In this document: positions 74 to 54,747 of the stretch, one piece after another | How positions within the stretch are numbered: the first letter of the stretch is position 1 | Layout of the letters: each line of letters opens with the position of its first letter | From: Acidobacteriota bacterium | Lineage (GTDB): Bacteria; Acidobacteriota; Vicinamibacteria; Vicinamibacterales; JAFNAJ01 | DNA: 64,000 bases | Reading direction: 5' to 3' | Assembly: GCA_023384575.1 (NCBI GenBank) | Contig: JAHDVP010000003.1 | Coordinates: 137,086-201,085 of the forward strand | Notes under the pieces: model-generated | Database searches by the model: none | Told to the model about the DNA's origin: nothing | Seen by the model: the letters and a program-made list of their open reading frames with translations, nothing else | Translations under genes and position numbers: made by a program

Positions 74-1192
74 ATGGCCACGCACAGGATTGGCTGGATG
101 CCCGGAGACGGCATCGGCAACGACGTGATGGAAGCAACGCGACTCGTGCTCGATCGGGCCGGGTTCGAGGCGGAGTACGTACACGGCGACATCGGCTGGG
201 ACTACTGGTGCAGCGAGGGCGACGCGCTGCCCCAGCGCACCGTCGACATGCTCGGCACCGTCAAGGCTGCCCTGTTCGGCGCCATCACGTCGAAGCCGAT
301 CAAGGAAGCCGCTCAGGAGCTGGCGCCGGCTCTCCAGGGGTCCGGCCTCGTCTACCGGTCGCCGATTGTCCGGATGCGGCAGCTCTTCGACCTGTACGTG
401 TGCCTGAGGCCCTGCCGCGCCTACCCGAGCAACCCGCTGAACTACAAGGAAGGCATCGATCTGGTGGTGTTCCGCGAGAACACCGAGGATCTCTACGCCG
501 GCGTCGAGTTTCCCCAGGTGCCCGATCGCCTGCGCGAGACGCTGACGGAGCTGTCGCCGCCGTTCAAGGCCTTCAAGGACCTGCCGGGGACCGAGTACGC
601 GGTGTCGTGCAAGATCAACACGAAGGCCGGCTCGGAGCGCATTGTCCGCGCGGCGTTCGAGTTCGCCCGCACGTACGGCCGCCGCAAGGTGAGTGTCGTC
701 CACAAGGCCAACGTCGTCCGTGCCACCGATGGCCTGTTCCTCGAGGCGGCGCGGCGCGTGGCCCACGACTACCCCGACATCGCCGTCGACGATGCGAACG
801 TCGACGCGATCACGATGTGGCTGCTCAAGAACCCGTTCAACTACGACGTGCTGGTCGCGCCGAACCTCTACGGCGACATCATCTCGGATCTCTGCGCGCA
901 GATGGTGGGCGGGCTGGGCTTCGGGTGCTCGGGCAACATCGGGCACCAGCTCGCGGTGTTCGAGCCGACGCACGGATCGGCCCCGAAGTACGCGGGCCAG
1001 TACAAGGTGAACCCCATTGCGACGATTCTCGCCGCGAAGATGATGCTCGACTGGCTCGGCGAGCGCGACATGGGGGCGCGGATCGATCGAGCGGTGGCCG
1101 AGGTGATTCGAGAGGGGACCGTCCGCACCTACGACATGGGCGGCAGCGCGTCGACGCTCGACATGGCCGAGGCCATCGCCGCGAGGCTGTGA
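74..1192 (+). CDS. isocitrate/isopropylmalate-type dehydrogenase
   Basis: A 372-residue member of the beta-decarboxylating dehydrogenase family, which oxidises a 2-hydroxy-3-carboxy acid and releases CO2. Visible family features are the substrate arginines R102, R112 and R134 (in FRENTEDLYAG), the catalytic Lys in VVHKANV (about 211), and metal aspartates in the NLYGDIISD region. The substrate loop (RSPIVRMRQ, 95-103) keeps the Ser of E. coli isocitrate dehydrogenase but has Ile98 where that enzyme has Asn115. K305-Y306 (in SAPKYAGQ) match the NADP-binding Lys-Tyr pair of E. coli Icd, suggesting NADP use. The REN motif is more like isocitrate or homoisocitrate dehydrogenase than LeuB. It overlaps the next gene by ATGA. 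The family is sure and the substrate is not: isocitrate, homoisocitrate, 3-methylmalate and D-malate/tartrate-type substrates remain possible. Confidence 0.9.
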   Translation: MATHRIGWMPGDGIGNDVMEATRLVLDRAGFEAEYVHGDIGWDYWCSEGDALPQRTVDMLGTVKAALFGAITSKPIKEAAQELAPALQGSGLVYRSPIVRMRQLFDLYVCLRPCRAYPSNPLNYKEGIDLVVFRENTEDLYAGVEFPQVPDRLRETLTELSPPFKAFKDLPGTEYAVSCKINTKAGSERIVRAAFEFARTYGRRKVSVVHKANVVRATDGLFLEAARRVAHDYPDIAVDDANVDAITMWLLKNPFNYDVLVAPNLYGDIISDLCAQMVGGLGFGCSGNIGHQLAVFEPTHGSAPKYAGQYKVNPIATILAAKMMLDWLGERDMGARIDRAVAEVIREGTVRTYDMGGSASTLDMAEAIAARL

Positions 1193-2103
1193 TGGCGCGC
1201 ATCGTGCTTCACGAGGTGGGCCCTCGCGACGGCCTTCAGATGGAGAAGGCCGTCGTGCCGACCGACGTGAAGGAGGCCTGGATCAGGCGTCTGCTCGCGG
1301 CCGGCCTCGACATCGTGCAGGTGGGCTCGTTCGTGCACCCTGACAAGGTGCCGCAGATGGCCGACACCGACGAGCTGTTCCGGCGGCTCACGGCCGACCG
1401 GCCCGCCGGCGGCGTCCTCTCCGGCCTCGCGCTGAACGAGAAGGGCGTCGATCGCGGGCTGCGGTGCGGCGTCGAGCTGTTCTGCGTGGGCGCGTCGGCG
1501 AGCGACACGCACAGCCGGCGGAACACCGGCATGAGCACTGACGAGGCCGTCGGCCGCATCGTCGCGGTCGCACGTGAAGCGGTGGCCGCGAAGAAGGCCG
1601 TGCAGATCTCGGTGCAGTCGGCCTTCGGCTGCGGCTTCGAGGGGCCGATCCCGGAAGAGCGGGTGCTCGGCATCGTGCGGGCGTATCTCGAGGCAGGTCT
1701 GCGGCAGGTCAGCCTCGCCGACACGGCTGGCCACGCGCACCCGGCGCAGGTCGAGCGCCTGTTCTCTCAGGTGAGGGCGCTCGCCTCCGACGTGGAGTGC
1801 ACCTGCCATCTCCACAACACGTATGGCCTCGGGATGGCCAACATCTTCGCGGCCCTGCGGGCCGGCGTCACGGCGGTCGAGACGTCCTTCGCCGGGCTCG
1901 GCGGCTGTCCCTTCACGAAGGTGGCCGCCGGCAACGTGGCCACCGAGGACTTCGTGCACGCGCTGCAGCGCGACTCGCTGCGCGAGGACGTGGATCTTCA
2001 GGCGCTGATCGCGGTCTCCCGCGACGTGGGCGCCCATCTGGGGCGGGAGATGCCGGGCTTCGTCCACAAGACCGGGCCGATCGCCCGCGCGGAGCGGACA
2101 TGA
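1192..2103 (+). CDS. HMG-CoA lyase-like DRE-TIM metallolyase
   Basis: A 303-residue protein of the HMG-CoA lyase branch of the DRE-TIM superfamily, whose members cleave (or form) a 3-hydroxyacyl-CoA from a CoA ester and an oxo acid or ketone. It begins with HEVGPRDGLQ, giving the conserved Glu8, Arg12 and Asp13. Metal ligands are present as DTAG and the HLH of CTCHLHNTYG. The flexible loop AGLGGCPF carries the catalytic Cys239. The strand equivalent to human IETTSFV reads IVQVGSFV, so the substrate-contacting Glu72 of the human enzyme is Gln43 here. This change argues against ordinary HMG-CoA as substrate. It is translationally coupled at both ends (ATGA overlaps) to the dehydrogenase and CoA transferase genes. 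A citramalyl-CoA- or citryl-CoA-like substrate is possible but unproven. Confidence 0.88.
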   Translation: MARIVLHEVGPRDGLQMEKAVVPTDVKEAWIRRLLAAGLDIVQVGSFVHPDKVPQMADTDELFRRLTADRPAGGVLSGLALNEKGVDRGLRCGVELFCVGASASDTHSRRNTGMSTDEAVGRIVAVAREAVAAKKAVQISVQSAFGCGFEGPIPEERVLGIVRAYLEAGLRQVSLADTAGHAHPAQVERLFSQVRALASDVECTCHLHNTYGLGMANIFAALRAGVTAVETSFAGLGGCPFTKVAAGNVATEDFVHALQRDSLREDVDLQALIAVSRDVGAHLGREMPGFVHKTGPIARAERT

Positions 2104-3299
2104 CCCAGCCGATGCTGAAGGGCGTGCGGGTACTCGACCTCACCAACGTGCTGTCGGGCCCGTTCGCCACCTTGCACCTCGCGCTGCTCGGTGCCGAGGT
2201 GATCAAGATCGAGAACCCGAAAGACGGCGACCTCGCGCGCAAGCTGGGCATCGTGCCCGAGCTCAACGAGCAGCTGATGGGCACGAGCTTCCTCGCGCAG
2301 AACGCGAACAAGAAGTCGGTGACGCTGAACCTGAAGCCGGCCGAGGGAAAGGAGATCTTCAAGCGACTCGTGGGCACCGCCGACGTGCTCGTCGAGAACT
2401 TCCGTCCCGACGTGATGGACCGCCTCGGGCTGGGGTACGCGACGCTCTCCCCCCTGAACCCGAAGCTCGTCTACTGCGCCATCTCCGGGTTCGGCCGCAC
2501 GGGCCCGGACGCGCTCAAGCCCGCCTACGATCAGATCATCCAGGGGCTCTCCGGCGTGATGGCGGTCAACGGCGACCAGCGGCTGAACCCGCTGCGTGCC
2601 GGGTTCCCGGTGTGCGACACCGTCGGCGGTCTCAACGCGGCGTTCGCCGTGATGGCGGCGCTCTACCACCGCGAGCGGACGGGCGAAGGTCAGTACATCG
2701 ACGTGGCGCTGCTCGACTCGATCATGCCGCTCATGGGCTGGGTGGCGGCGAACCTGCTGATCGGCGGACAGGCGCCAGTGCTCATGGGCAACGACAACTT
2801 CACGGCCGCGCCGTCTGGCACGTTCCGGACGGGCGACGGCTACATCAACATCGCCGCCAACAAGCAGGAGCAGTGGGAGGCGCTGTGCGAGGTGCTGGAG
2901 CTCGTCGAGCTCAAGACCGACCCGCGCTTCGAGAAGCGTGACGCGCGCAAGAAGCACCGTCAGGCGCTCACGCCGCTCGTCGAGGCGAAGCTCGTCGGGC
3001 GCCCGACGGCCGAGTGGGTGGAGCGGCTGAATGCGCGCGACGTGCCGAGCGGCGCGATCCTGAGTCTCGAGGACGCGCTCGGGCAGCCGCAGGTCGCGCA
3101 CCGGGGCGCGCTCGAGCAGGTGCCCGTCGAGGGGATCGGCACGCTGCCGCTCTTCGGATTGACGGCGCACTTCGGCAAGGGGCACGGCCACATCGAGGCG
3201 CCGCCGCCACGGCTCGGCGCGCACACGCGCGAGGTGCTGACGGAGATCGGGGTCGATGACGAGGCGCTCGCCAGGTTGAAGGGCGCGGGCATCGTCTGA
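2100..3299 (+). CDS. CaiB/BaiF (class III) CoA transferase
   Basis: A 399-residue class III CoA transferase, which moves CoA between two carboxylic acids through enzyme-bound mixed anhydrides. The N-terminus VRVLDLTNVLSGPF is the family opening, and the catalytic aspartate is probably Asp173 in PVCDTVGGLNAAF, the position aligned with Asp169 of formyl-CoA transferase. YHRERTGEGQYIDVAL is the conserved segment that follows. The ATG at 2100 overlaps the lyase stop codon, which fixes the start. In this operon it would load CoA onto, or remove it from, the hydroxy-dicarboxylate handled by the lyase. Close relatives use succinyl-CoA with itaconate, citramalate or mesaconate, so one of these is a fair guess. 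The exact acids cannot be read from the sequence. Confidence 0.92.
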   Translation: MTQPMLKGVRVLDLTNVLSGPFATLHLALLGAEVIKIENPKDGDLARKLGIVPELNEQLMGTSFLAQNANKKSVTLNLKPAEGKEIFKRLVGTADVLVENFRPDVMDRLGLGYATLSPLNPKLVYCAISGFGRTGPDALKPAYDQIIQGLSGVMAVNGDQRLNPLRAGFPVCDTVGGLNAAFAVMAALYHRERTGEGQYIDVALLDSIMPLMGWVAANLLIGGQAPVLMGNDNFTAAPSGTFRTGDGYINIAANKQEQWEALCEVLELVELKTDPRFEKRDARKKHRQALTPLVEAKLVGRPTAEWVERLNARDVPSGAILSLEDALGQPQVAHRGALEQVPVEGIGTLPLFGLTAHFGKGHGHIEAPPPRLGAHTREVLTEIGVDDEALARLKGAGIV

Positions 3300-3373
3300 C
3301 GCCGGTCGCCCGACGACTGGCGATCGGGCGCCGGCGCACGAACGGGGACTCGTTCCGGAGGAGAGGACGTTCC

Positions 3374-4663
3374 ATGGGCATGACCTACGTGCAGAAGCTG
3401 CTCGCCCGGGCCTGCGGCCGCGCGCACGTCGACGTCGGCGAGGTCGTCGAGCCGCCGGTCGACCTCGCGATGTCGCACGAGAACGCGGCGCTCGTCGTCA
3501 ACCAGTTCAAGGCGATCTACGAGGGGACCGGACGCGAGCCGCGCGTGTGGGCGCCAGATCGGGTCGCCATCATCTTCGATCACCGCGTGCCGGCGGAGTC
3601 GGCCAAGACCGCGAGTAATCAGAAGCGCGTGCGCGAGTTCGTCGGCGCGCAGGGGTTGACGAAGTTCCACGACATCCGCGGCGACCGCGGCGGCATCTGC
3701 CATCAGATCCTGCCGGAGAACGGCTACGTTCGCCCAGGCGCGGTGGTCGTGGGCACCGACAGCCACACGACGACGCACGGTGCGCTCGGCGCGTTCGCCT
3801 TCGGCATCGGCGCCACCGAGATGGCGTCGGTCTGGACGCTCGGCCGGGTGCTGAACCTCGAGGTGCCGGCGACGATTCGGGTCGACGTGCACGGCCCGCT
3901 GCCCGACGGCGTCTACGCGAAGGACCTGATCCTCCACCTGATCGGCCGGCTCGGGGCCGAAGGGGCCAATTTCAAGGTCATCGAGTTCCACGGCGACACG
4001 ATCCGGGACATGCCGACCTCGGGTCGGCTGGTGCTCTGCAACATGACGGTGGAGGCCGGCGCGACGGCCGGTGTCGTCGTACCCGACGACGAGACCGCCA
4101 GATACCTCAGGGACGAAGCGGGGGTTGCCGACGCGCTCGATGGCTTCGCGCCCGACGCCGATGCGGTGTACGACCGGGTCGTGGACATCGACGTGACGAC
4201 GCTCGTCCCGCAGGTGGCGTGTCCGCACACTGTCGACAACGTCAAGCCCATCGAGTCGGTGACGGGCACCAGGGTGCACCAGATCGTGATCGGGTCGTGC
4301 ACCAACGGCCGCCTCGACGACCTCGAGGTCGCGGCGCGGATCCTCCGCGGGCGCCGCGTGGCCGACGGAACCAGGCTGCTGGTGTTTCCGGCTTCGTGGC
4401 GCATCTATTCCGACGCGATGCGCCTCGGCTACCTGCAGGCGCTCGTCGACGCCGGGGCTGTCGTCTGCAATCCGGGGTGCGGCCCGTGCCTGGGCGTCCA
4501 CCAGGGTGCGCTCGGCGACGGCGAGACGGCGCTCGCCACGACGAACCGGAACTTCAAGGGGCGCATGGGCAATCCAGGCGCCGACGTGTATCTGTGTTCC
4601 ACGGCGGTGGCGGCCGCAAGCGCACTCACCGGCCACATCGCCGACCCCAGAGGAGGGCACTGA
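3374..4663 (+). CDS. aconitase-family hydro-lyase, large subunit (LeuC/HacA-like)
   Basis: A 429-residue large subunit of the two-subunit isopropylmalate isomerase/homoaconitase family, which moves a hydroxyl group between adjacent carbons through a dehydrated intermediate. The [4Fe-4S] ligands are Cys309 (GSCTNGR), Cys369 and Cys372 (NPGCGPCLG). VGTDSHTTTHGALG and FGIGATEMA are the usual active-site segments. The length fits the archaeal/bacterial short LeuC type rather than monomeric aconitase. The start at 3374 has a GGAGGAG ribosome binding site at 3357-3363, and a second ATG two codons later is an alternative. It lies 74 nt after the CoA transferase gene and one base before its small subunit. 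It could act on isopropylmalate, but the gene company points to another 2- or 3-substituted malate. Confidence 0.92.
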   Translation: MGMTYVQKLLARACGRAHVDVGEVVEPPVDLAMSHENAALVVNQFKAIYEGTGREPRVWAPDRVAIIFDHRVPAESAKTASNQKRVREFVGAQGLTKFHDIRGDRGGICHQILPENGYVRPGAVVVGTDSHTTTHGALGAFAFGIGATEMASVWTLGRVLNLEVPATIRVDVHGPLPDGVYAKDLILHLIGRLGAEGANFKVIEFHGDTIRDMPTSGRLVLCNMTVEAGATAGVVVPDDETARYLRDEAGVADALDGFAPDADAVYDRVVDIDVTTLVPQVACPHTVDNVKPIESVTGTRVHQIVIGSCTNGRLDDLEVAARILRGRRVADGTRLLVFPASWRIYSDAMRLGYLQALVDAGAVVCNPGCGPCLGVHQGALGDGETALATTNRNFKGRMGNPGADVYLCSTAVAAASALTGHIADPRGGH

Positions 4664-4664
4664 G

Positions 4665-5180
4665 ATGACGACACGCCCCGTCGTCTTCACCCTCGGCGAC
4701 GACGTGTCGACCGACCTCATCTACCCAGGCCGTTACATGGCCACCGTGCTGCCGACGGAGACCCCGCAATACGCCTTCGCCGATCACGCGGAGTTCCGCG
4801 TGAAGCTCTCGTCCGGGGAGATCGCCCCGGGCTCCGTCGTCGTCGCGGGCGCCAACTTCGGATGCGGGTCGTCGCGCGAGCAGGCGGCCTCGTGCCTGAA
4901 GGGCTACGACCTCGTCGTCGTGGCCCGCGATTTCGCGCGGATCTTCCTGCAGAACGCGATCAACGTCGGCCTCCAGGTCGTCATCTGTCCCGACATCGAG
5001 GCGAACGAGGGCGATGAAGTCGAGCTGACCGACCGGGAGGTGGTCAACCACACATCCGGCCGACGCTTCGCGATCCGCCCGCTGCCGGCAGCGCGCCAGG
5101 CCATCATCGATGCCGGAGGCCTCGTGCCCTACACGCGCGAACTGCTCACGAGGCAGGAGGTGAAGCGACCGGCATCCTGA
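4665..5180 (+). CDS. aconitase-family hydro-lyase, small subunit (LeuD/HacB-like)
   Basis: The 171-residue small (swivel) subunit partner of the preceding gene. DDVSTDLIYPGRYMA and NFGCGSSREQAA are the conserved signatures, the second contributing substrate-binding serine and arginine. The substrate-recognition loop reads YMAT where the characterised archaeal homoaconitase has YLRT, whose Arg holds the distal carboxylate. Loss of that Arg suggests a non-carboxylated side chain such as methyl or alkyl. The ATG at 4665 follows an AGGAGG site at 4651-4656 inside the end of the large-subunit gene. It closes the operon and is followed by the convergent proS. Confidence 0.92.
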   Translation: MTTRPVVFTLGDDVSTDLIYPGRYMATVLPTETPQYAFADHAEFRVKLSSGEIAPGSVVVAGANFGCGSSREQAASCLKGYDLVVVARDFARIFLQNAINVGLQVVICPDIEANEGDEVELTDREVVNHTSGRRFAIRPLPAARQAIIDAGGLVPYTRELLTRQEVKRPAS

Positions 5181-34326: not shown

Positions 34327-36426
34327 ATGAAGGTCTACGACGCAGGCTCGATCAGGAACGTCGCCGTGGTCGGACACGGCGGAGCGGGCAAAACCCAGCT
34401 CGTCTCCGCCATGCTGTTCGACGCCGGCATGGTGAACCGCCTCGGCAGGGTCGACGACGGCACCACGGTCACCGACTTCGACGAGGAGGAGATCGGGCGC
34501 AAGCACACGCTCTCGTCGAGCCTGGCGTTCGCCGAGTGGAACAAGGTCAAGGTCAACGTCATCGACACGCCGGGTTTCGCCAACTTCCTGAGCGACGCCC
34601 GCGCGGCCCTCCGGGTGGCCGACGCGGCCGTGGTCGTCGTCGATGCGGTATCGGGCGTGGAGGTGCAGACCGAGAAGGTCTGGCACATCGCTGAGGAGTT
34701 CCACCTGCCGCGGCTCGTCGCGCTCAACCGGATCGATCGCGACCGCGCGAGCCTCGAGCGCAGCCTCGAGTCGCTCCGCGGCGCGTTCGGCCGTGGCGTC
34801 GTCCCGGTGACGCTGCCGCTCGGCGAGGAGAAGGACTTCGCGGGCATCGTCGACCTGGTGTCGATGAAGGCCCTGACGTTCGCCACCGACGGCAGCGGCT
34901 CGTTCAAGGAGGGTCCCGTCCCGTCCGCCCTGGCCGACGAGGCGGCTGCCGCGCGCGAGGCTCTCGTCGAGATGGTCGCCGAGGCCGACGACAGCCTGAT
35001 GGAGCGCTTCTTCGAAGAGGGTACCCTCACGCAGGACGAGCTCGAGTCGGGCCTCCGCAAGGCCACCGCGGCGGGAAAGGTCTTTCCGCTGTTCTGCACG
35101 TCGGCGACGCTGAACGTGGGCGTCCACGGGCTGCTCGACGGCATCGTGGCGTACGTGCCGTCTCCTGGTGAGCGCCCGTTCGGAGCGGTCGACCGTTCGG
35201 CCGGCGACGTCACGCCCGTTCAGGCTGACGAGGGCGCGCCGACCACGGCGTTCGTCTGGAAGACGATCGCCGACGCGTTCGCCGGGCGGATCACGCTGTT
35301 CCGCGTGGTCACCGGCGTCGTGAAGGCCGACTCGACCATCCACAACCTCACCAAGGACGCCGCCGAGCGGCTCGGACATCTGCTCATCATGCAGGGCAAG
35401 ACGCAGACGCAGGTGACCGAACTGCGGGCGGGCGACCTCGGCGCCGTGGCGAAGCTCAAGGAAACGCAGACCAACGACACGATCGGCGACAAGGCCGCCC
35501 AGGTCACGTTCCCGCCCACGGCGTACGCGAAGCCCCTGCTGTCGTACGCGATCGAGCCGAAGAGCCGCGGCGACGAGGACAAGATCTCGACGTCGCTCCA
35601 GCGGCTGCAGGAAGAGGACCCGACCATCCAGTACACCCGCGACCCGCAGACGAAGGAACTGCTGCTGTCCGGCCAGGGCCAGCTGCACATCGAGGTCACC
35701 GTCGCCAAGCTGAAGCGCCGCTTCGGCGTCGACGTCAACCTGAAGCTCCCGCGCATCGCCTACCTCGAGACGATCACGGCATCGACCGAGGCGCACGGCC
35801 GCCACAAGAAGCAGACCGGCGGGCACGGGCAGTTCGGTGACTGCAAGATTCGGATGGAGCCGCTGCCGCGTGGCGCCGACTTCGAGTTCGTCGACGACAT
35901 CTTCGGGGGCTCGATTCCACGCCAGTTCGTGCCGGCCGTCGAGAAGGGCATCCAGGACGCGCGCCAGCGTGGCTACCTCGCCGGCTACCCCGTTGTCGAT
36001 TTCAAGGTGTCGGTGTACGACGGCTCGTTCCACCCGGTCGACTCGAACGAACTGTCGTTCAAGATGGCGGGGTCGCTGGCGTTCAAGGACGCGATGTCAC
36101 GCGCGCGGCCGACGATCCTCGAGCCGGTCATGAACGTCGAGGTCTACGCGCCGAGCGAGTACGCCGGCGACCTCATGGGCGACATCAACGGACGGCGTGG
36201 ACGCATCGCGGGGATGGACTCGCGGGGCACGACGACCATCATCCGCGCCCAGGTACCGATGGCCGAGATGCTGACCTACGAGCAGCAACTCACGTCGGCC
36301 ACGGGCGGGCGCGGGTCGTACCAGATGGAGTTCTCGCACTACGAGGAGGTGCCAGCGCACCTGCAGTCGAAGATCGTGGCTGCCGCGAAGGCGGAGCGCG
36401 GCGACCAGGCGGCCGAGGCCGAGTAG
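34327..36426 (+). CDS. elongation factor G paralogue (EF-G2 type)
   Basis: A 699-residue translational GTPase with all five EF-G domains. G1 is GHGGAGKT (16-23). The G3 motif reads DTPGF at 80-84, so the catalytic His of DTPGH in EF-G is replaced by Phe84. G4 is NRID rather than NKxD (134-137). Domain IV (TGGHGQFGDCKI) and domain V are present. The canonical fusA lies at 52540-54645, so this is a second, diverged copy of the EF-G2 kind known in several phyla. Such paralogues may act in stress, recycling or specialised translocation. It stands alone behind a palindromic intergenic region. Confidence 0.93.
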   Translation: MKVYDAGSIRNVAVVGHGGAGKTQLVSAMLFDAGMVNRLGRVDDGTTVTDFDEEEIGRKHTLSSSLAFAEWNKVKVNVIDTPGFANFLSDARAALRVADAAVVVVDAVSGVEVQTEKVWHIAEEFHLPRLVALNRIDRDRASLERSLESLRGAFGRGVVPVTLPLGEEKDFAGIVDLVSMKALTFATDGSGSFKEGPVPSALADEAAAAREALVEMVAEADDSLMERFFEEGTLTQDELESGLRKATAAGKVFPLFCTSATLNVGVHGLLDGIVAYVPSPGERPFGAVDRSAGDVTPVQADEGAPTTAFVWKTIADAFAGRITLFRVVTGVVKADSTIHNLTKDAAERLGHLLIMQGKTQTQVTELRAGDLGAVAKLKETQTNDTIGDKAAQVTFPPTAYAKPLLSYAIEPKSRGDEDKISTSLQRLQEEDPTIQYTRDPQTKELLLSGQGQLHIEVTVAKLKRRFGVDVNLKLPRIAYLETITASTEAHGRHKKQTGGHGQFGDCKIRMEPLPRGADFEFVDDIFGGSIPRQFVPAVEKGIQDARQRGYLAGYPVVDFKVSVYDGSFHPVDSNELSFKMAGSLAFKDAMSRARPTILEPVMNVEVYAPSEYAGDLMGDINGRRGRIAGMDSRGTTTIIRAQVPMAEMLTYEQQLTSATGGRGSYQMEFSHYEEVPAHLQSKIVAAAKAERGDQAAEAE

Positions 36427-52539: not shown

Positions 52540-54645
52540 TCACTTGCCCTGGATGCGGGCGACGACCTCTTCGCTCACGTTGTGCGGCGCCGGCTCGTAC
52601 CGGTCGAAGTGCATCGAGTAGGTCGCGCGGCCCTGCGTCTTCGACCGCAGGTCGGTCGCGTACCCGAACATCTCCGAGAGCGGCACGCGCGAGGTGACGA
52701 CCTGCGTGCTGCCGCGCGCTTCCATCGACTGGATCCGGCCCCGCCGGCTGTTGAGGTCGCCCATGATGTCGCCCATGTACTCCTCGGGCACCACCACCTC
52801 GACCCGCATCACCGGCTCGAGCAGCACCGGCGCGGCCTTCTTGGCCGCCTCCTGGAACGCCATCGACCCGGCAATCTTGAAGGCCATCTCCGACGAGTCG
52901 ACGTCGTGGAACGAGCCGTCGTAGAGCTCGATCCCCACGTCGTCGACCGGGTACCCCGCGAGCACGCCGCGCGTCATCGCCTCGCGGATGCCCTCGTCGA
53001 TCGGCTTGATGAACTCGCGCGGGATCGTGCCGCCGACAATCGCGTTGACGAACTCGTACCCCTCGCCCGGCTGACGCGGCGTGAGGCGGATCTTCGCGTG
53101 GCCGTACTGCCCACGGCCGCCCGTCTGCTTCACGTACCGGCCCTCGCCCTCCGAGGCGCGCGTCAGCGTCTCCTTGTAGGCGACCTGCGGCTTGCCGACA
53201 CTGGCCTCGACGTTGAACTCGCGCTTCAGGCGGTCGACGATGATCTCGAGGTGCAGCTCGCCCATCCCGGCGATGACCACCTGCCCGGTCTCCGTGTCGG
53301 TCCGCACCCGGAAGGTCGGATCCTCCGCCATCAGCTTCTGCAGCCCCTGCGCGAGCTTCTCCTGGTCGGCCTTGGTCTTCGGCTCGATCGCCAGCGAGAT
53401 CACCGGCTCGGGGAAGTCCATCGACTCGAGCACCACCGGGTGCTTGTCGTCGCAGATCGTGTCGCCCGTCGTCACGCTCTTCAGCCCGACGGCGGCGGCG
53501 ATGTCGCCGGCGTAGACCTCCTTGATCTCCTCACGCTTGTTGGCGTGCATCTTCAGGAGGCGACCGATGCGCTCGTGCTTGCCCTTCGTGGCGTTGAAGA
53601 CCGACGAGCCCGACGTCATCACCCCGGAGTACACACGGATGAACGTGAGCTGACCGACGAAGGGGTCGGTCATGATCTTGAAGACGAGCGCCGAGAACGG
53701 CGCCGAGTCGGACGACTCGCGGACCAGGGCCGGCCCGTCGGGCGCCTTCGGATTCGCGCCCTCGATGGCCGGCACGTCGACCGGCGACGGCAGGAAGTCG
53801 ACCACCGCGTCGAGCAGGGGCTGGACGCCTTTGTTCTTGAACGCCGAGCCGCAGATGACCGGCACGAAGGGGGCACGCTCGCCCCGCACCGACTCGACCG
53901 TCCGGTGGCGCAGCGCCGCCTTGATCTCCGCCTCCTCGATCTCCTCGCCCGCGAGGTACTTCTCGAGGATGCGGTCGTTCACCTCGCTCACCTTCTCGAT
54001 GAGCTTCTCGCGGTACTCCTGCGCCTCGGCCCGCATGTCGGCCGGGATCTCGCCGACGACGTAGTCGGCGCCCATCGTCTCGTCCTTGTACAGGATGGCC
54101 TTCATCCCGATGAGATCGACGACGCCGACGAACCGGTCCTCGGCGCCAATGGGCAGCTGAATGGCGACCGGGTTGCCCTGCAGCTTCGTCTCGATCTGCG
54201 AGAGCGTCCGCTTGAAGTCGGCGCCGATGCGGTCCATCTTGTTGACGAAGCAGATCCGCGGCACTCGGTACTTGTCGGCCTGCCGCCACACCGTCTCCGA
54301 CTGCGGCTCGACGCCGGCGACCGCGTCGAAGACGGCCACCGCGCCATCGAGCACCCGCAGCGACCGCTCGACCTCCGCCGTGAAGTCGACGTGCCCGGGC
54401 GTGTCGATGATGTTGATGCGGACGTCGCGCCAGAAGCAGGTCGTCGCGGCGGAGGTGATGGTGATCCCCCGCTCCTGCTCCTGCTCCATCCAGTCCATGA
54501 CCGCCGTCCCCTCGTGGACCTCACCAATCTTGTAGGTGATGCCCGTGTAATAGAGGATGCGCTCGGTCGTGGTGGTCTTGCCGGCATCGATGTGCGCCAT
54601 GATGCCGATGTTGCGCGTCCGACTCAGTGGAACTTGCCTGGCCAT
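52540..54645 (-). CDS. fusA: elongation factor G
   Basis: A 701-residue canonical EF-G that drives translocation. G1 [17 protein letters not shown] with the catalytic His, and NKMD are all intact, unlike the paralogue at 34327. Domain IV contains [16 protein letters not shown] at 54645 ([14 protein letters not shown]) is preferred over a TTG six bases upstream. Confidence 0.99.
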
Positions 54646-54747
54646 GATCAAACTCAGACGTGTCGGCGTTCGCTCTCGTCCGGCCCCGCGGGCCCGCCCG
54701 GCCGGGGCGCGTCGCCCCCGCCAGCCAATCGCGAACCGACCCGTGTC

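Follow-up and report, generated by a model that had tools for sequence, protein, structure and literature searches.

What reaction does a compact unit encoding a dehydrogenase, a lyase, a CoA transferase and a two-subunit hydro-lyase carry out, in a genome that also encodes LeuA and isocitrate dehydrogenase? The unit opens the window, by which we mean the whole 64,000-nucleotide stretch analysed here (contig 3, positions 137086–201085, of a 5.9 Mb draft genome). We checked its gene families with Pfam and NCBIfam, compared its distribution among 100 related genomes, and compared the loci that surround homologous dehydrogenases in other phyla.

A conserved and mobile five-gene unit

All five genes lie on the + strand. 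The first (74..1192) encodes an NADP-type β-decarboxylating dehydrogenase of the isocitrate/isopropylmalate family (Iso_dh; PF00180, E = 5e-86), a predicted 3-methylmalate (3-alkylmalate) dehydrogenase. It is followed by a DRE-TIM, HMG-CoA-lyase-like (HMGL-like) protein (1192..2103; PF00682; PRK05692 subfamily, 264 bits over the cut-off), a predicted citramalyl-CoA lyase, and by a family III (CaiB) CoA transferase (2100..3299; CoA_transf_3, PF02515, E = 3e-122), predicted to exchange CoA between succinyl-CoA and citramalate. The last two genes encode a two-subunit hydro-lyase (isomerase): a LeuC-type aconitase large subunit (3374..4663; PF00330; PRK00402, 544 bits over the cut-off) and a LeuD-type small subunit (about 4665..5180; PF00694; TIGR02087 LeuD/DmdB family, 122 bits over the cut-off). 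Genes 1 and 2, and genes 2 and 3, overlap by 1–4 bases, genes 4 and 5 nearly abut, and 74 bases separate genes 3 and 4; the unit ends ahead of proS on the opposite strand. An earlier note on this DNA, made from the letters alone, had described a five-gene operon, and the reading frames, families and packing bear it out. Its remark that neither leuA nor TCA genes lie beside the unit is correct locally but not genome-wide: elsewhere in the genome there are two LeuA genes, one LeuCD pair and an NAD-isocitrate dehydrogenase, together with a tartrate-dehydrogenase paralogue, ilvC and threonine deaminase.

The two LeuA genes are at G000:C6:42612-44156 and G000:C26:33465-34598. A long LeuA, matching the whole TIGR00973 model, occurs among the 100 relatives only in this genome and one other (G001), while a short form is common. 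Translations read by eye also revealed two elongation-factor-G-like genes in the window (34327-36426 and 52540-54651), one of them near ribosomal protein genes.

None of the five proteins reached an NCBIfam equivalog cut-off. The HMGL-like, LeuC and LeuD proteins matched subfamily-level models only, and the dehydrogenase scored below every NCBIfam cut-off. Thus, the substrates cannot be read from the names.

Among the 100 relatives, counting the window genome itself, 16 have an orthologue of the CoA transferase (68–74% identity); further matches were at most 43% identical. Dehydrogenase orthologues occurred in 15 genomes, largely the same set, with the exceptions falling among genomes that are 77–91% complete. 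About 10 related loci keep the five-gene order, as do loci in several other phyla, so the grouping is not due to chance; here, too, the idea that it would recur in related genomes proved sound. Two genomes, G033 and G023, have the operon in two pieces at separate places, HMGL-CaiB at one and IDH-LeuC-LeuD at the other, and retain both pieces. Searching named genomes with an alignment of the dehydrogenase gave at least 80 loci in many bacterial and archaeal phyla, and among the loci listed the full cassette was present in Acidobacteriota (Geothrix/Holophagaceae and Thermoanaerobaculia), Ignavibacteria, Latescibacterota, Anaerolineales, Elusimicrobia, Opitutales and others. Pairwise distances of the five proteins were correlated across 20 cassettes (r 0.62–0.93), and identities within the order (65–77%) were little higher than those to other phyla (61–73%), a combination that fits transfer as a unit. 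The five-gene unit is therefore real, conserved and horizontally spread, and, as described below, its chemical logic is well constrained.

The lyase step and the substrate pockets

The HMGL-like protein keeps the catalytic RDGLQ, H-x-H and GGCPF...GN motifs of HMG-CoA lyases and shares only 41% identity with the other homologue of HMG-CoA lyase in this genome. These motifs are common to a wider lyase family, and hence are not diagnostic of the substrate. For the CoA transferase, the best PDB relative is succinate-hydroxymethylglutarate CoA-transferase.

A more informative constraint came from loci in which the lyase step alone has been exchanged. In a Sumerlaeota locus (L098) and a Chloroflexi locus (L114), neither an HMGL nor a CaiB gene is present, and a single isocitrate-lyase-family gene (L098:7168-8106 and L114:4969-5913) stands between the dehydrogenase and LeuCD genes. 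The closest solved relative of this lyase, determined for L114, is petal death protein, known as a 2-alkylmalate lyase. In Bipolaricaulota (L100, 760-7122), CitF and a CitD-CitE fusion precede LeuC, LeuD and a 75%-identical dehydrogenase, with an MmgE/PrpD-family gene following. Finally, two more distant dehydrogenases (L107 and L116) adjoin a citryl-CoA-lyase-like gene, accompanied by a SucD-like gene in L107 but not in L116. All of these replacement lyases, encoded next to a dehydrogenase and an isomerase of the type found in the cassette, make or break a 2-hydroxy-2-R-succinate, interconverting it with acetyl(-CoA) and a 2-oxoacid. Because the HMGL-CaiB pair is swapped for such enzymes, its own step is the cleavage or formation of a 2-hydroxy-2-R-succinate, with R as the only variable left, and this chemical position is well supported. 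The earlier note had deduced that a lyase and a CoA transferase stand in for a hydrolysing synthase and are followed by an isomerase and a decarboxylating dehydrogenase, and the non-orthologous replacement of the lyase step alone backs that order of reactions.

The dehydrogenase and the isomerase bear on the identity of R. Isocitrate dehydrogenase contacts the extra (γ) carboxylate of isocitrate through Lys100 and Asn115 (E. coli numbering). In the window enzyme the substrate pocket instead contains F68 and S96-P97-I98, and most of some 57 relatives keep these residues; isocitrate enzymes show K and S-x-N there. Thus Phe and Ile occupy the positions of K100 and N115 in this enzyme and in almost all of its close relatives, and the isocitrate-type relatives included in that alignment carry K and N. 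At the Asn115 position, homoisocitrate dehydrogenase carries Arg85 and the window enzyme Ile. The isomerase tells a similar story: the specificity loop of the small subunit, GR[YF]MATVLPxETPQ (GRYMATVLP in the window), is conserved in the alignment and has Ala in place of the homoaconitase Arg (YLRT). The LeuC-type large subunit carries the cluster-binding cysteine motifs, and its nearest solved structures are the M. jannaschii isopropylmalate/citramalate isomerase and homoaconitase, with near-equal scores. A LeuCD-type isomerase is therefore encoded with a LeuB/IDH-family dehydrogenase whose pocket, by alignment, is small and hydrophobic. Together, the Phe and Ile of the dehydrogenase and the Arg-free LeuD loop indicate a small alkyl substrate, for which citramalate and 3-methylmalate would be the simplest choice. 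The AlphaFold model of the dehydrogenase, built on a shallow alignment, was poor (pLDDT 58), and the pocket arguments made here are drawn from sequence alignment alone.

The window dehydrogenase also has K305-Y306, as in NADP enzymes, a match to the two residues with which E. coli isocitrate dehydrogenase binds NADP; the genome's NAD-type enzyme has a D-I pair. By these sequence features the enzyme belongs to a distinct NADP-type subfamily. A separate group of dehydrogenases with the motif FKSAILQMR was seen in Treponema, Synergistaceae and Bacillota (L144, L150, L151, L153 and L155); at L150, L151 and L155, three of these five loci, it lies next to one LeuCD pair or two.

Candidate pathways

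We propose, with about even confidence, that the cassette carries out a CoA-conserving interconversion of 2-oxoacids, most likely in the methyl series, between acetyl-CoA plus pyruvate and 2-oxobutyrate plus CO2. For this scheme we infer a methyl side chain, R stereochemistry and succinyl-CoA as the CoA partner. Acetyl-CoA and pyruvate would be joined to (R)-citramalyl-CoA by the HMGL-like lyase; the CaiB transferase would convert this to (R)-citramalate and an acyl-CoA, with succinate/succinyl-CoA as partner; the LeuCD-type isomerase would carry (R)-citramalate through citraconate to 3-methylmalate; and the IDH-like dehydrogenase would yield 2-oxobutyrate, CO2 and NADPH, each step being written as reversible. 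Such a cassette would serve the pyruvate/2-oxobutyrate/propionyl-CoA node of central metabolism, and not branched-chain synthesis alone. In keeping with 2-oxobutyrate as a hub, one cassette (L138) is flanked by methionine γ-lyase-like and 2-oxoacid:ferredoxin oxidoreductase genes and another (L106) by a PorA-like gene, that is, by enzymes that produce and consume 2-oxobutyrate.

Several observations count against the citramalate scheme. Homoaconitase-family models also match the isomerase, homoisocitrate models (scoring far under the cut-off) are among the best NCBIfam matches of the dehydrogenase, and we found no close homologue of characterised function for any cassette enzyme. Cues to direction conflict, with decarboxylating dehydrogenases favouring one way and cleavage-type replacement lyases the other. 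Methylmalonyl-CoA mutase, present in 16/16 cassette genomes and 98/100 overall, fits the scheme but is near-universal in the order and hence uninformative on direction.

The intermediates proposed here are identical to those of the citramalate route to isoleucine, which raises the alternative that the lyase and CoA transferase simply bypass CimA or LeuA in isoleucine or leucine biosynthesis. We compared gene presence in the 16 cassette genomes and the 84 others; all are relatives, so the Fisher values for these counts are not independent tests. CimA (TIGR00977) occurred in none of the 16 cassette genomes, although it is also absent from 70 of the 84 without the cassette, and full-length IlvA is scarcer alongside the cassette (2/16 vs. 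31/84), both as a bypass would predict. However, LeuA is present in 12 of the 16, and the four that lack it lack ilvC as well. Overall, ilvC is absent from nine of the 16 (six of them at least 95% complete), though present in the window genome. Since the cassette is kept in branched-chain auxotrophs that lack ilvC, it is not simply a device for isoleucine or leucine synthesis, and an NADP-type rather than NAD-type dehydrogenase also argues against the bypass. Having examined LeuA, CimA, IlvA and ilvC across the 100 relatives, we rejected isoleucine/leucine replacement as the main role, and regard the bypass as distinctly unlikely. The earlier note's suggestion of leucine/isoleucine chain extension in place of a missing leuA is thus not supported; the check it proposed, whether leuA/cimA is missing where the cassette occurs, came out positive for cimA but not for leuA.

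In a citrate version of the cassette, oxaloacetate and acetyl-CoA would be linked through citryl-CoA, citrate and isocitrate to 2-oxoglutarate, in a CoA-transferase variant of the citrate-cleavage arm of the reductive TCA cycle. The citrate lyase, citryl-CoA-lyase-like and SucD-like ligase genes beside relatives of the dehydrogenase (L100, L107 and L116) fit this, as do the NADP-type cofactor pair and the isocitrate/homoisocitrate dehydrogenases that are the nearest PDB relatives. Yet the enzyme has lost the Lys and Asn that contact the γ-carboxylate, and the window genome is already equipped with isocitrate dehydrogenases of both the NAD and the NADP type, so that we consider a citrate substrate unlikely. 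Lysine (2-oxoadipate) degradation, with the homocitrate route run backwards to 2-oxoglutarate and acetyl-CoA, was suggested by an Elusimicrobia locus (L102:48-7853) whose cassette lies between genes for L-piperidine-6-carboxylate dehydrogenase and for a class III aminotransferase, neighbours that also count against citramalate. The homoaconitase and homoisocitrate names among the nearest models, and the resemblance of CaiB to succinate-glutarate CoA transferase, point the same way. In the window's order, however, the L-piperidine-6-carboxylate dehydrogenase marker (NF050084) is not associated with the cassette (4/16 cassette genomes vs. 20/84 others), the window enzymes lack both the Arg85 of homoisocitrate dehydrogenase and the loop Arg of homoaconitase, and the LeuD loop differs in L102. 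We therefore rejected lysine degradation for this order, where it is very improbable; L102 may be a lysine-linked variant. Equally doubtful is the degradation of external branched C5 acids (citramalate, citraconate or 3-methylmalate), with exits at 2-oxobutyrate and at acetyl-CoA plus pyruvate. It would account for the occurrence of cleavage-type replacement lyases alongside a decarboxylating dehydrogenase, but the cassette contains neither transporter nor regulator, and in several relatives its surroundings appear, from translations read by eye, to be housekeeping genes. A further idea, that the cassette stands in for the glyoxylate shunt in anaplerosis, was also weighed; isocitrate lyase, found in 3/16 cassette genomes and 7/84 others, is too rare across the order to be informative.

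Under the citramalate scheme, operation towards 2-oxobutyrate would provide a route to propionyl-CoA and succinyl-CoA, and operation towards acetyl-CoA and pyruvate would make the cassette the methyl counterpart of the reductive TCA cycle's citrate-cleaving arm. In a bolder form, which we think rather unlikely, the cassette would lie at the heart of an undescribed pathway of this kind that has spread widely by transfer. Propionyl-CoA would be carboxylated to 2-oxobutyrate by 2-oxoacid:ferredoxin oxidoreductase and then, with NADPH, to 3-methylmalate, which would be isomerised to citramalate and, by way of the CoA transferase and an HMG-CoA-lyase-type citramalyl-CoA lyase, cleaved to acetyl-CoA and pyruvate, with at least three alternative lyase systems filling the same slot elsewhere. 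If the citramalate scheme is true, the cassette links acetyl-CoA, pyruvate and propionyl-CoA metabolism, and perhaps CO2 fixation, in many uncultured lineages. Across many bacterial and archaeal phyla, a single dehydrogenase subfamily is paired with interchangeable lyase systems, a warning not to label cassette genes as enzymes of leucine synthesis, as HMG-CoA lyase or as isocitrate dehydrogenase. Geothrix, a cultured genus with an intact cassette, makes direct testing possible.

Comparison with known systems

The titles and abstracts we searched contained no description of the five-gene set, in agreement with the earlier note, which knew of no pathway with exactly these genes; individual reaction partners are known. 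R-citramalyl-CoA lyase and succinyl-CoA:citramalate CoA transferase form an indirect way to R-citramalate, according to a review (PMC8307300), and in Rhodospirillum rubrum citramalate-dependent isoleucine synthesis provides a redox outlet (PMC8490811); a search by term showed the five-gene set in neither paper. The CimA pathway of isoleucine synthesis likewise uses an isomerase and a decarboxylating dehydrogenase to take citramalate through 3-methylmalate to 2-oxobutyrate. The cassette differs in entering by a CoA lyase and CoA transferase where CimA is a hydrolysing synthase, in its NADP-type dehydrogenase, and in being retained without ilvC; with CimA absent and ilvC often missing, it is not a member of that pathway.

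In the α-aminoadipate route of lysine synthesis, homoaconitase and homoisocitrate dehydrogenase are among the nearest named models, but the cassette lacks their specificity Arg residues and scores below the equivalog cut-offs. Nicotinate catabolism, through dimethylmaleate hydratase (DmdAB) and 2,3-dimethylmalate lyase, combines a hydratase of the LeuCD/DmdAB type with a lyase of the isocitrate lyase family, an arrangement shared by L098 and L114; that system has no dehydrogenase or CoA enzymes and acts on another substrate.

A close parallel to the first two steps is the Chloroflexus pair, in which R-citramalyl-CoA lyase (EC 4.1.3.46) is of the HMG-CoA lyase family and succinyl-CoA:D-citramalate CoA transferase (EC 2.8.3.20) of family III. 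In the cassette, too, an HMG-CoA-lyase-family lyase is encoded beside a family III CoA transferase, and the reaction pair is the one proposed here, a likeness of family and predicted reaction. The Chloroflexus pair is not known to be coupled to LeuCD and IDH-like genes. Taken as a whole, the proposed pathway resembles the citrate-cleavage arm of the reductive TCA cycle (citryl-CoA synthetase/lyase, aconitase and NADP-IDH), which performs the same chemistry step for step on substrates with one extra carboxylate, whereas the cassette has a CoA transferase in place of the ligase and a dehydrogenase pocket without the isocitrate-binding Lys and Asn.
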